The notes below the pieces were generated by a model that saw nothing but the letters and a program-made list of their open reading frames with translations, was not told the DNA's origin and made no database searches. 64,000 nucleotides of DNA from Candidatus Gastranaerophilales bacterium. Lineage in GTDB: Bacteria; Cyanobacteriota; Vampirovibrionia; Gastranaerophilales; Gastranaerophilaceae. Below, in pieces: positions 53,078 through 62,842 of this stretch (within the stretch, counting starts at the first letter, position 1; each line of letters begins with the position of its first letter). The stretch is taken from contig CALUWC010000004.1 of assembly GCA_944324395.1 (NCBI GenBank), positions 62,001-126,000 on the forward strand, written 5' to 3'. Made by a program: the position numbers and the translations under genes.

Positions 53078-54802
53078 TTATTTTTTATTTTTTTCGCAAC
53101 CCTTTATCATTGTATAACGACGACCTTTTTTAATTATATCGAATTTTAATTCTTTACTTACTTTATCAAGAACTTTATTTTTTACAATAACTACATTGCC
53201 CCGTTTTTTTAAATCTTTTCTTATAGCTTTTATATCAACATCTTCAGGATTAAAATCAACTTTTTCATCATTATAAAAAAGAAGTGAATATTTTCTGTCC
53301 ATACCGTTTGCAGATATTGTATAATCATAATCTCTGGCATATTTTGCAAATTCTACAAGATCCTGCTGTCCGAATTTGTAATCAACTTCGAAAAATTCCT
53401 CTGTAGCAAATGCTGAAATAACAGTCATAAAAAGAACATAAAAGATGAATACACCCAAATATCTTTTATATTTTACAAATAACAAAGTACCAATACCAAA
53501 GACCAGCAAACAAATTATACTAAACCATCTGATTTCTGCAATATCATGATTTAACTGTGCTGGAAGATATAGGGGAGTAAACATAGCAGCAACCCCAAAT
53601 ACTACACAAAACCAGCCGAATATTTTGACAGATATATTTATAGGTTTTTCGTGTTTTTTCTTATCTACATAATCCATCCACATCAACCCTACTATGATAG
53701 ACAGAGGATAATATATCGGCAGAATATAAGTTACAAGTTTTGTACTTGATGCTGAAAAGAAAAACATAATCCAAAGAATAGTAACCCAGCATAATGCTAT
53801 TATCTTATGAGTATTATCTTGTTTTTCGAAGTCAAAATTCTCTATTTTTTCAATATAGTGCAATTTATTCCAATTCTTAATTTTATCAATAAATACAGCA
53901 ATCATTGAAAAAATCCAAGGTATAAATCCCCATAGAACAACCACAAAATAGTAATAAAACGGCTGTTTCCTGCCAATTTCATTGTGTGCAGTATTAAAAA
54001 ATCTTTCTATATGGTGCTTAACAATATATTCGTTGAAAAATAACGGATTATATTTATACAACATATAAATATGCCATGGCAAAACAATCAACAAAAACAG
54101 TATAATACCGGGAATCATATAAATGGGTTTAAAAATTTCTTTAAACTTTTTCGCCATAATAGCGGTAAAAAATACTGTTCCAAAAGGTACAATAAATCCG
54201 GGAACACCTTTTGCCATAACAGCTAAACCCGAAAAAAGATAAAAAGCCCACCAGAAATATTTTTTATGATGTTCTTTGCAAAAATAAACAGAAAAATAAG
54301 ATACCAGAGCAAGTCCTATATAAAAAGTTAATACAATATCCAGAATTGCATATCTTGCAAGCATAATAAATTCTAAAGATGTAGCAAGTATTAGCGAGGT
54401 AAAGACTCCAAATCTGCGATTTACAAAATATCTTGAAACAAAATAGACTATTAAAGAAAAAGAAAAACCGAGTAAAGCAACAGGAAATCGTGCAGTCCAT
54501 TCATTGATTTTTCCCCACAGGGCAAAAGATAAACATTCCTGCCAAAAATATAATGGAGGTTTTTCAAAGAAATAATGACCGTTTAAATATAAAGTCATAA
54601 AATCTTTTGAATGAAACATATCTCTAGCCATTGCAACATATCTGGTTTCATCAACATCCATCAAAGAATAAGTACCGATATCGTGAAAAAATATAAAATA
54701 AAAAATCAATGCCAGACCTAAAAATGTCAAAATATCAACATACTTATCAGCAAAATTGATTACTTTTTCCCACACGCTAAAAAATCTGTTCTTAAACTCC
54801 AT
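53078..54802 (-). CDS. GT39-family membrane glycosyltransferase (ArnT/PMT-like)
   Basis: The 574-residue integral membrane protein has about a dozen hydrophobic segments. The first luminal loop has DVDETRYVAMARDMFHSKDF, with the catalytic Asp-Glu pair typical of lipid-linked-sugar transferases. EKPPLYFWQ is the other ArnT/PMT hallmark. The C-terminal soluble tail (about 480-574) is charged. Such enzymes use polyprenyl-phosphate sugars to modify lipid A or proteins in the periplasm. Substrate not deducible. GAGAGGG precedes the ATG. Confidence 0.88.
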   Translation of the reverse strand: MEFKNRFFSVWEKVINFADKYVDILTFLGLALIFYFIFFHDIGTYSLMDVDETRYVAMARDMFHSKDFMTLYLNGHYFFEKPPLYFWQECLSFALWGKINEWTARFPVALLGFSFSLIVYFVSRYFVNRRFGVFTSLILATSLEFIMLARYAILDIVLTFYIGLALVSYFSVYFCKEHHKKYFWWAFYLFSGLAVMAKGVPGFIVPFGTVFFTAIMAKKFKEIFKPIYMIPGIILFLLIVLPWHIYMLYKYNPLFFNEYIVKHHIERFFNTAHNEIGRKQPFYYYFVVVLWGFIPWIFSMIAVFIDKIKNWNKLHYIEKIENFDFEKQDNTHKIIALCWVTILWIMFFFSASSTKLVTYILPIYYPLSIIVGLMWMDYVDKKKHEKPINISVKIFGWFCVVFGVAAMFTPLYLPAQLNHDIAEIRWFSIICLLVFGIGTLLFVKYKRYLGVFIFYVLFMTVISAFATEEFFEVDYKFGQQDLVEFAKYARDYDYTISANGMDRKYSLLFYNDEKVDFNPEDVDIKAIRKDLKKRGNVVIVKNKVLDKVSKELKFDIIKKGRRYTMIKGCEKNKK

Positions 54803-54869
54803 ATCCCTCTCCGGTTATCTTTGTTTTTTATTATAACACAAATATGAATATTATAGATGAAGAAAACTA

Positions 54870-55110
54870 TGTATAAAAACTGTATAAAAGTTTTAATTTT
54901 CTACATTATTTTTTTATTTAAAATTTATAAAAAAAGTTTTCTACAATTCGTACAAAAACTAACAACTTTTTCTACAAATTTTATACAACTTAAAATTATT
55001 ATATAATCATAGTTTCCAAAGTTTTCTACAAATATTTACAGCTTATTATCATGAAGTATTTTATTAATATAAATATATAAATATTATTGTTAATATTATA
55101 TTAGTTTCAA
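54870..55110. other. Candidate replication origin (oriC) with TTTTCTACA boxes
   Basis: Four identical TTTTCTACA sites in the same direction lie at 54897-54905, 54937-54945, 54968-54976 and 55022-55030. TTTTATACA variants lie at 54979 (plus) and at 54870 and 54881 (minus). A very AT-rich stretch follows (55040-55110), like an unwinding element. The cyanobacterial DnaA box is TTTTCCACA and the origin there often lies beside dnaN, which starts at 55872. Gene directions diverge around this spot, as expected at an origin. Confidence 0.6.
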
Positions 55111-55151
55111 AAAATAAGTCTTTTTAAAATTTTTATTTTTACATATTGGCT

Positions 55152-55634
55152 CTAATATCTAGACTCTTTATATGTAAAACCATATTTTACAAAGTCTGAA
55201 TTATCAGTTGTTATATTTGGATATTTTTTCTTAATCTCTTTTGCTAAAAGGACCAGACAAGCATCTTTGTCTTTACTATTACCGGAAAATGCATATCCGA
55301 CTACTTCTTTTTTACTTACATTATAAGAAAAAGAACATTTGGAATTTTTAAAAGTTTCGCTTATTTTCATATTTGATTTTTTACATTTTCCTTGATTATA
55401 CAGAGCTAAAGTTTTTCGATTTGTTTCTCTAATTTCTTGTATACAAGCTGTATAGGAGGATTTATAATTTTCTAAACCTTTACAGTCATTTTCATTTCCG
55501 ACTTTGCCAGGTACAATACCTAATATTGTATCATCAGAACCAGAACAATCGTATAATTGTTCGTATGTTGCTGCATATACTGTTGCAGATAAACTAAATA
55601 TTATTAATGCTGTAAAAATTAAAAGCTTTTTCAT
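55152..55634 (-). CDS. Secreted cysteine-containing hypothetical protein, 160 aa
   Basis: A signal peptide (KKLLIFTALIIFSLSATVYA, first 21 residues) is followed by a lysine-rich mature part with six cysteines (YDCSG, NDCKG, TACIQ, GKCKK, SKCSF, DACLV), which could form three disulfides. No family is recognised. It lies between the oriC candidate and dnaN, reading away from dnaN. Confidence 0.7.
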   Translation of the reverse strand: MKKLLIFTALIIFSLSATVYAATYEQLYDCSGSDDTILGIVPGKVGNENDCKGLENYKSSYTACIQEIRETNRKTLALYNQGKCKKSNMKISETFKNSKCSFSYNVSKKEVVGYAFSGNSKDKDACLVLLAKEIKKKYPNITTDNSDFVKYGFTYKESRY

Positions 55635-55871: not shown

Positions 55872-56993
55872 ATGAAATTCATCATAAGAAAAGAGGATTT
55901 ATATAACGGTATTAAAATTGTTGAACGTGCAACTTCTCAAAAAGCTGTACAGCCTGTTTTGTACAATATTTTGATTGAAGCTGTTAGTGATAATACGGTA
56001 AGACTTACCGCAACAGATTTAGTTTTAACTGTTATTACAACAGTCGATGCTCAGGTAGAACAGCCTGGAAAAATTACTCTTCCTGCCAGAAAATTGAATG
56101 AAATTGTTTCTAAATTGGGAAATGATTTGGTTACTGTTGAAATGGAAGAAGGTGAAACAAGTGTTAATATTACCTGCAACAAATCTAAATTTGATATAAT
56201 CGGTATTTCAGCAAATGAATTTCCTCCTGAAGTTTCTAATTATGAACTTGATGAATCAAAATGTTTTGATGTTGAATTAAAACCATTTTTAAAAGCTATC
56301 CGTCAAGCAGGTTTTGCTGCTGCAAGTTATGAAGTAAGTAATTTATTATCCGGTATTGTCTGTGATTTTTCTAACGGTATTTTAGAAATAGCATCAACAG
56401 ACGGTAACAGACTTGCCAGAGTCAGAGAAAAAATTAACAGTGATATTACAGAACAAACCCAGCTTATTATTCCTTCAAGAACATTGAATGAATTTATGAA
56501 AATGGGTGCGTTTATAGATGATGAAACTATAAAAATTTGCAAGGATAAATCTACAATAGTTTTGAAAACTGAAAAAACTTTGACTATTTCAAGACTTCTT
56601 GAAGGACAATTCCCTAAATATAACCAGTTGATACCTTCTGAAAGTCCAAAGCAGGCAATAGTTAATGTTTCTCAATTGATTGCCGCATTGGAAAGAGTTT
56701 CTGTAATGGTTAATGATAAAACAAGTATTGTAAAAATGCTCTTTGCTGATAATGAATTAACTCTTTCTGCAGATACTCCCGATTCTGGTAAATCTGAGGA
56801 TAAAATAGATATACAATATACTGCAGAAGAATTGTTAATTGCATTTAACTACAAATTTGTTTTAGATGCTTTAAGAATTATTGAAAGTGATGAAGTTATA
56901 ATAGGTTTGAATGCGAGCTTGTCTGCAACTGTTTTAAAACCAAACAGTGACGAAGATTTTATTTGTTTAATAATGCCTGTTCAAATAAGATAA
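55872..56993 (+). CDS. dnaN: DNA polymerase III sliding clamp, beta subunit
   Basis: The beta clamp encircles DNA and tethers polymerase III. The 373-residue protein has three similar clamp domains (about 1-120, 125-245, 250-373), with IRKEDLYNGIKIVERATSQK at the start, LVLTVITTVDAQVEQPG, TDGNRLARVREKI in domain 2 and the C-terminal IMPVQIR that ends most clamps (canonical MPMRL). I use the ATG at 55872, eight bases after AAGGAG; the in-frame TTG at 55866 is too close to it. Confidence 0.95.
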   Translation: MKFIIRKEDLYNGIKIVERATSQKAVQPVLYNILIEAVSDNTVRLTATDLVLTVITTVDAQVEQPGKITLPARKLNEIVSKLGNDLVTVEMEEGETSVNITCNKSKFDIIGISANEFPPEVSNYELDESKCFDVELKPFLKAIRQAGFAAASYEVSNLLSGIVCDFSNGILEIASTDGNRLARVREKINSDITEQTQLIIPSRTLNEFMKMGAFIDDETIKICKDKSTIVLKTEKTLTISRLLEGQFPKYNQLIPSESPKQAIVNVSQLIAALERVSVMVNDKTSIVKMLFADNELTLSADTPDSGKSEDKIDIQYTAEELLIAFNYKFVLDALRIIESDEVIIGLNASLSATVLKPNSDEDFICLIMPVQIR

Positions 56994-61441: not shown

Positions 61442-62842
61442 TTGAAAAAGAAGATAGCAATACTATTATTGGCAAGTTTTATTTTAACAAATCTTACTCC
61501 ATTATCATGTCTGGCAATAAATAAAAAATCATCAAATGAACCTAAAAAAGTTTCTATCACAAAAACTCATAAACAAAGACAAAAAAGTGATGAATTTAAA
61601 TATGAGTATATAAACTATGACTGGTGGAAAAATTTTAATGATGGTATTTTGAATGGCTATATTGATAAGGCAATTAAAAATAATTATGACTTAAAATCTG
61701 CTACAATAGCAGTTGATGAATATTATCAGGCAGTAAGAATGCAATTTGCAAATGAGTTGCCAATGGCCGGTGTCGGTTTTTCTCCGGCATTTTCAAAACA
61801 ACCGGGTACAACAAGTTCAGGGTGGATGTTTGCAACTCCTGCCATTGCAAATTATGAATTAGATTTATTTTTGAAAAACAGAGATAAAACAAAAGCTTCT
61901 GAAAGAGAATATGAAGCATCTTTGCAAGATGAAAGGGCTGCCTATATTTCTATAGCTTCTGCTGTTGGTACAACTTATTTAAATATTGTTAAATTGGATA
62001 AAATGATAGAATTGCAGGAAGATATTGTAAAAGATAGAAAATTAATTTATGAATTGATGCTTGCAAGAAATAAGGAAGGTTTAACATCAACTGCAGATAC
62101 TGTAAAAGCTAATAAATCTTATATTGCCGGTAATACGAATTTAACCGAATATAAAAAACAAAGGACAAAATTATTAAACCAATTAAGTGTATTAATTGGA
62201 GAAAACCCAAATAATATAGAGTCTTTGAAAAGAATAAGCTATGATGAATTAAATTTCTCAGGTCCAATTCCGGCAGAAATTCAATCAGAAATAATTTCAC
62301 AGCGTCCTGATTATATAAAGGCAGAAAAAATGATTGAAAAAGCCGGTATAGATGTAAGGGTTGCTAAAAAAGAGTTTTTGCCGTCAATAAATATTACGGG
62401 TCTTGCATTATTTTTAGCAGGAGATATCGGTAGTGCGTGGTCTACAAAGAATGCTCTTGCTGCTCTTGCTGCAGGAGTTAATCTTCCTATATTTACAGGT
62501 GGAAGAAGATTAGCAAATCTAAGATTGAAAAAAGATGAATATGAAAGACTTTTAAATAATTATTATCAAACAAATTTAACAGCAATTCAGGAAGTAAATG
62601 ATGCACTGGTGTCTATAAAACTTGACAGGGAAAAATACAACGATACTGAAACTCAAGCCAAGTTAGAAAGAGAAGATTTCGGTTACAGTACCGGTAAGTA
62701 TAATGAAGGCACTATATCAAAGCTTGATTTGGTTCAAGTTAGAGAAAACGTATTATTTACAGACCAGCAGGTTGTTAATGATAAAATCAATTGCCTTGTA
62801 GATTATATAGGTCTATATAAAGCAGTTGGAAGCCAGTTATAA
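61442..62842 (+). CDS. Outer-membrane efflux protein (TolC/OprM-NodT family)
   Basis: The start is TTG with AGAGGA upstream. A signal peptide (KKKIAILLLASFILTNLTPL, then SCLA) precedes a 440-residue mature protein with the two duplicated OEP halves. Visible are YINYDWWKNFNDGILNGYID, AIKNNYDLKSATIAVDEYY and ANYELDLFLKNRDKTKASE; the second half has SQRPDYIKAEKMIEKAG, ANLRLKKDEYERLLNNYYQT and STGKYNEGTISKLDLVQVRE. It forms the outer-membrane tunnel for the EmrAB pump. The Cys after LS could be lipidated, as in OprM, but the lipobox is weak. Confidence 0.92.
   Translation: MKKKIAILLLASFILTNLTPLSCLAINKKSSNEPKKVSITKTHKQRQKSDEFKYEYINYDWWKNFNDGILNGYIDKAIKNNYDLKSATIAVDEYYQAVRMQFANELPMAGVGFSPAFSKQPGTTSSGWMFATPAIANYELDLFLKNRDKTKASEREYEASLQDERAAYISIASAVGTTYLNIVKLDKMIELQEDIVKDRKLIYELMLARNKEGLTSTADTVKANKSYIAGNTNLTEYKKQRTKLLNQLSVLIGENPNNIESLKRISYDELNFSGPIPAEIQSEIISQRPDYIKAEKMIEKAGIDVRVAKKEFLPSINITGLALFLAGDIGSAWSTKNALAALAAGVNLPIFTGGRRLANLRLKKDEYERLLNNYYQTNLTAIQEVNDALVSIKLDREKYNDTETQAKLEREDFGYSTGKYNEGTISKLDLVQVRENVLFTDQQVVNDKINCLVDYIGLYKAVGSQL

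Follow-up and report, generated by a model that had tools for sequence, protein, structure and literature searches.

A candidate replication origin with altered DnaA boxes near dnaN in gut Gastranaerophilales

The window analyzed here is a stretch of 64,000 nucleotides (positions 62,001 to 126,000 of contig CALUWC010000004.1, assembly GCA_944324395.1) from Candidatus Gastranaerophilales bacterium, a member of the Cyanobacteriota, and the element in question is an array of putative DnaA boxes near dnaN that is a candidate for the chromosome replication origin (oriC).

The box array and its surroundings

The array lies in a gap of 349 bp (54803-55151) with 16.6% GC and no open reading frame (ORF) of at least 80 aa, bounded on the left by the gene for a PMT-type glycosyltransferase (53078-54802, minus strand). 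The word TTTTCTACA occurs there four times exactly and always on the plus strand, as candidate boxes 1 (54897-54905), 2 (54937-54945) and 3 (54968-54976) and a last box (55022-55030), with starts spaced by 40, 31 and 54 bp and the start of the last box 850 bp before the dnaN ATG at 55872. These are the sites in which an earlier note on this DNA had seen an origin, and they were found again as described. The array holds three additional TTTTATACA sites, at 54870-54878 (minus), probably a weak box of an inverted arm, at 54881-54889 (minus) and at 54979-54987 (plus), the last being 11 bp, or one helical turn, past box 3. The single orientation reported in the earlier note holds for the four exact boxes and fails for the whole array, in which the sites at 54870 and 54881 are on the minus strand. 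In two relatives of the same genus (G139 and G100) the position of the 54881 site carries an exact minus-strand TTTTCTACA, likewise 16 bp from the first plus box, so that the one orientation in the window in part reflects decay of the inverted arm. All four window boxes (4/4) have T at position 6, which is C in the canonical TTWTNCACA and in the cyanobacterial box TTTTCCACA.

Between the array and dnaN, the gene for the DNA polymerase III beta clamp (55872-56993, plus; PF00712, PF02767, and PF02768), sits a 160-aa ORF (55152-55634, minus) with a signal-peptide-like start, no Pfam match and no assigned function, which falls outside the proposed mechanism. It points at the array, leaving the divergent transcription once described here true of dnaN only. 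In a close relative (L064) only about 0.48 kb separates the last box from dnaN, and for that reason the ORF may be an insertion in the window genome.

TTTTCTACA is not enriched genome-wide, with 68 matches where the reversed control word has 94, so that it is the cluster rather than the word that carries the signal. The lack of enrichment would be in keeping with chance clustering of an A/T-rich word. Against this, when the gap was dinucleotide-shuffled 3000 times, TTTTCTACA never appeared more than twice (0/3000 reached four), and in the same shuffles no 9-mer with at least two G/C reached four copies. On the whole 167-kb contig no other 350-bp window with GC of 0.26 or less held more than one copy, so the array gap, when compared with other AT-rich gaps as had been proposed, stands alone with its four, and nowhere else in the genome was there a second site with two same-strand copies 10-40 bp apart. 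DnaA-box-like 9-mers are clustered beyond chance in this non-coding DNA, and an accidental origin of the cluster, already refuted by conservation of the array in relatives, has a vanishingly small probability.

Of the 146 family genomes, 62 have same-strand TTTTCTACA pairs 10-40 bp apart, whereas control pairs number about ten overall. When compared with dnaN positions, the TTTTCTACA pairs lie mostly 150-400 bp before that gene. The same array is upstream of dnaN in several relatives (e.g., L064, L068, L072, and L073), the named relatives in GTDB genomes being Gastranaerophilales or Melainabacteria metagenome-assembled genomes (MAGs), mostly from animal guts. With the array in the dnaN promoter region in most relatives, it could be read not as an origin but as a regulatory region of dnaN or of a neighbor, bound by DnaA or another protein. 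Such a role is improbable, in that the array is 47 kb from dnaN in G139, 17 kb in G045 and 2.6 kb beyond the other dnaN end in G100, with the spacing (16 bp from the minus box to the first plus box, followed by steps of 40, 31-32 and 54 bp) kept in G139 and G100, and in that it borders on trio-like triplets and AT-rich DNA (see below). Within this one genus (L314 = G139, L315 = G045, L316 = G100 and window positions 54870-55030), the distance between array and dnaN ranges from 0.85 to 47 kb and the array can lie to either side of the gene, and therefore the origin or dnaN would have moved repeatedly. In a separate observation, two contigs (L088 and L095, JAMPCZ01) of a MAG titled Muribaculaceae (Bacteroidota) carry two Gastranaerophilales dnaN pieces with 93% and 91% identity to that of the window, likely through contamination or mislabeling.

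Triplets, unwinding element, and skew

The last box is preceded by a TAGTTTC element (55010-55016, plus) that recurs ahead of the last box in relatives, and is followed on the plus strand by a 12-nt spacer, AATATTTACAGC (55031-55042), and by the DnaA-trio-like run TTA TTA TCA TGA (55043-55054), with two perfect and two imperfect triplets, where relatives carry TTATTATTACTATTA. This run leads into a very AT-rich putative DNA unwinding element (55055-55110), assigned on composition alone (97% AT at 55070-55099). When relatives are aligned on the last box, the same succession appears: TTTTCTACA is followed, after a spacer of roughly 12 nt, by TTATTATTACTATTA-like triplets, and these by AT-rich DNA. 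Box, spacer and DnaA-trios follow one another in this order in the basal unwinding system of Bacillus subtilis and other bacteria (PMC10225481, PMC8235120). The window resembles that system, as known from B. subtilis and Helicobacter pylori, in the order of its parts, with a gap of about 12 nt between box and YTR-type triplets and with AT-rich DNA after these, while differing in its box, TTTTCTACA, and in a triplet run that is half perfect. A scan that required at least four YTR triplets at matching distance from a box-like 9-mer picked out 43 genomes; being strict, it misses the window because only half of the run is perfect.

GC skew was read on the window's contig (C4, 167 kb) and on part of contig C1 of a second genome (G073). 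On the first, the cumulative minimum is at 128,148 and the boxes are at 116,897-117,030, 11 kb away, while in G073 the curve drops until 31 kb, levels off as far as about 60 kb and climbs from there, with boxes at 49.3 kb and a minimum about 18 kb off. The skew in both genomes, weak as it is, agrees with an origin in the neighborhood. The array can be taken with near certainty as the origin of chromosome replication, the reading first put forward in the earlier note and supported here by the architecture in dozens of relatives, by the trio-like triplets and AT-rich DNA and by the nearby skew minimum.

DnaA and its boxes across the phylum

The genome encodes a single DnaA, on contig C5 rather than on that of the array, with domains I, III (AAA+) and IV (helix-turn-helix) over cut-off (PF11638, PF00308, and PF08299). 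The model of domain IV (pLDDT 93) superposes on the DNA-bound domains of Mycobacterium tuberculosis and Escherichia coli at 0.9 and 1.1 Å, matching structures 3pvp and 1j1v. The recognition helix begins FSKKHTT, compared with FGGRDHTT in E. coli and FGRDHTT in M. tuberculosis, placing Lys at the position of E. coli Asp433 and giving Lys-His for the Asp433-His434 pair. Published work counts D433 as base-contacting and describes either this residue or the 433-434 pair as highly conserved (PMC8235120, PMC5043019, PMC7561715); inspection of domain IV, as had been advised, accordingly found a base-contacting residue lost in the window genome. Loop shortening was considered as the cause of the shift in box and rejected, since the loop is equally short in M. 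tuberculosis, which has Asp and a C6 box (PMC4285127), and is short in G205 as well, again with Asp.

Outside the class, Asp433 was present in 29/29 DnaAs read from members of the phylum, and the dnaN-upstream regions of 26 such genomes held 152 TTnTCCACA boxes against 3 for the control. Lys433 is found in the window genome and most of its class, with boxes TTTTCTACA and TTTTGAACA, and in Lys-type genomes of the window's family position 6 is T in 444 boxes (control 75) and C in 14 (control 12, i.e., background). Asn433 is confined to one subclade, with boxes TTTTGCACA, TTTTGAACA, and TTTTAAACA, and here position 6 in the 300 bp before dnaN is C in 23, A in 31 and T in none, these final counts excluding a left TTTTGCACA cluster (-600 to -900), which falls within a comF-like reading frame, may reflect coding and inflates the totals when included. 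The box beside the triplets in the YTR scan follows the same division, being TTTTCTACA in 27/37 Lys-type genomes and TTTTGCACA or TTTTGAACA in 4/4 Asn-type genomes; it is TTTTCTGCA in one genome of genus g25. That genus has Gln for Thr435 and has TTTTCTGCA in the two genomes examined, with no TTTTCTGCA pairs in three other g25 genomes or in g30, also Gln435. In other families of the class Lys433 accompanies TTTTCTACA boxes (f2 and f4) or a position 6 that is mostly A (f3), and one f3 genome (G147) with Gln433 has TTATCAACA. The covariation was judged without Fisher p-values, boxes and genomes not being independent.

These comparisons support both the origin and a DnaA of shifted base preference common to relatives, as the earlier note had supposed, with Asp433 lost and position 6 following the residue type. 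The single C-to-T change it described extends through the family and into part of the class, the actual departure being broader, with several different boxes within one family. The array is read here, with a probability of about 85%, as the oriC of gut Gastranaerophilales (Melainabacteria), recognized by a Lys433 DnaA with a shifted base 6. DnaA encoded on contig C5 would bind the TTTTCTACA boxes, spread from the last box (55022) over the trio-like triplets and open the AT-rich DNA at 55055-55110. Replacement of Asp433 by Lys at the start of the recognition helix would have been accompanied by a move of box base 6 from C to T (or A), and a later Lys-to-Asn change in one subclade by C or A at this base, with residue 433 presumably setting the preference. 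There is an even chance that residue 433 is a switch for base 6 (Asp-C; Lys-T/A; Asn-C/A) and residue 435 one for base 7, such that several co-evolved and possibly orthogonal initiator-origin pairs would exist per class and even per family.

A different account of the same boxes is that the array is oriC but the specificity of DnaA is unchanged or merely relaxed, the boxes having drifted to T by AT-biased mutation. C-to-T is the direction expected at 30% GC, and mixed boxes (CT, GA, AT) stand side by side in several genera. Yet Asn-type genomes are equally AT-rich (upstream GC 0.26 vs. 0.27) and have C or A, never T, before dnaN, while in Lys-type genomes C6 boxes are only at background; TTTTGAACA requires changes away from A/T, and relaxation leaves strict TTTTCTACA arrays of 7-10 copies unexplained. 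Drift of this kind is unlikely.

Several observations weigh against an origin read by a DnaA with a switched residue 433. D433 has been assigned mainly to base 7, not 6 (PMC8235120), making the link between residue 433 and base 6 an argument from adjacency. In a DnaA tree built without domain IV, the Asn genomes form a single clade with support of 94 that includes one Thr, and the Asp label has to change at least twice, one of these changes possibly stemming from unstable outgroup placement. With about one Asp-to-Lys and one Lys-to-Asn event, the covariation has large counts behind it but few phylogenetic replicates. Lys-type genera divide into CT-rich and GA-rich at positions 5-6 with residue 433 unchanged, so that other residues would contribute. 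The trio run of the window is only half perfect. The skew is weak, its minimum is away from the array, and gene-strand bias does not switch.

DnaA-independent initiation, or initiation at other sites, has been reported for some cyanobacteria, and the weak skew and missing gene-strand switch would equally suit a chromosome that initiates elsewhere or without DnaA, leaving the array as a relic. This is very improbable, as exact boxes, spacing and matched DnaA changes kept over the whole family would not be expected of a relic.

Known origins and outlying members of the class

The oriC of Cyanothece, Anabaena, and Synechococcus adjoins dnaN and has TTTTCCACA boxes (PMC4674748). The array resembles these in coming from the same phylum, in its clustered 9-mers beside dnaN and in box bases of which the first four and last three are identical, and differs in T rather than C at base 6 and in Lys rather than Asp433. 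The boxes of Epsilonproteobacteria, with core TTCAC, offer a parallel for a lineage-wide box shift with recognition-helix changes (PMC5043019); in that group the fixed base is number 5, and both C6 and the Asp433-His434 pair remain, whereas the window lineage has neither C6 nor Asp433. Thermotoga maritima DnaA (FNRSHPVV in 2z4r) likewise has no Asp433, with Ser in its place, and its box, AAACCTACCACC, contains CTAC (PMC4285127), but this is a 12-mer from a distant lineage and any alignment of the two boxes is conjectural. A full-text literature search, with subscription journals mostly outside its coverage, returned no replication paper with TTTTCTACA and no mention of DnaA boxes in the papers it listed on the class.

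Both the DnaA box and its reading residues in the protein are generally regarded as near-universal, an assumption on which origin finders depend: Ori-Finder has TTATCCACA as its default box and takes TTTTCCACA when the genome is cyanobacterial (PMC10225481). A whole class appears to depart from both, the protein having changed to match. A non-photosynthetic gut relative of cyanobacteria in which the origin word and a normally fixed DnaA residue changed together would be a natural experiment on origin recognition, with the class providing ready-made natural variants for the DnaA-DNA recognition code. It would also give origin search words for Melainabacteria genomes, as needed by metagenomic growth-rate (peak-to-trough) methods.

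Origin assignment was without success in class families f5, f6, f8, and f9 and in genus g24. In f5 (L376-L379 and L393: G149, G154, G159, G164, and G173) the helix reads GRG-NS, with both Asp433 and the otherwise invariant His434 lost, and four genomes scanned had no box cluster before dnaN. In f6 (G182 and G150) DnaA has Thr433 (SNRTHSS), and perfect CTACTACTACTA trio-like runs stand before dnaN (L362 and L370) with no recognizable box cluster. At L159 (2208-2322) and its Asn-type equivalents, helically phased TTTTGCACA, TTTTGAACA, and TTTTAAACA words lie in a comF-like frame about 700 bp before dnaN, and these may be a second origin arm inside the gene or a coding effect of a Cys-rich motif. 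At L213 (G108), GGGGTAAA/TTTACCCC words cluster 2.5 kb upstream of dnaN, with seven copies in 600 bp.
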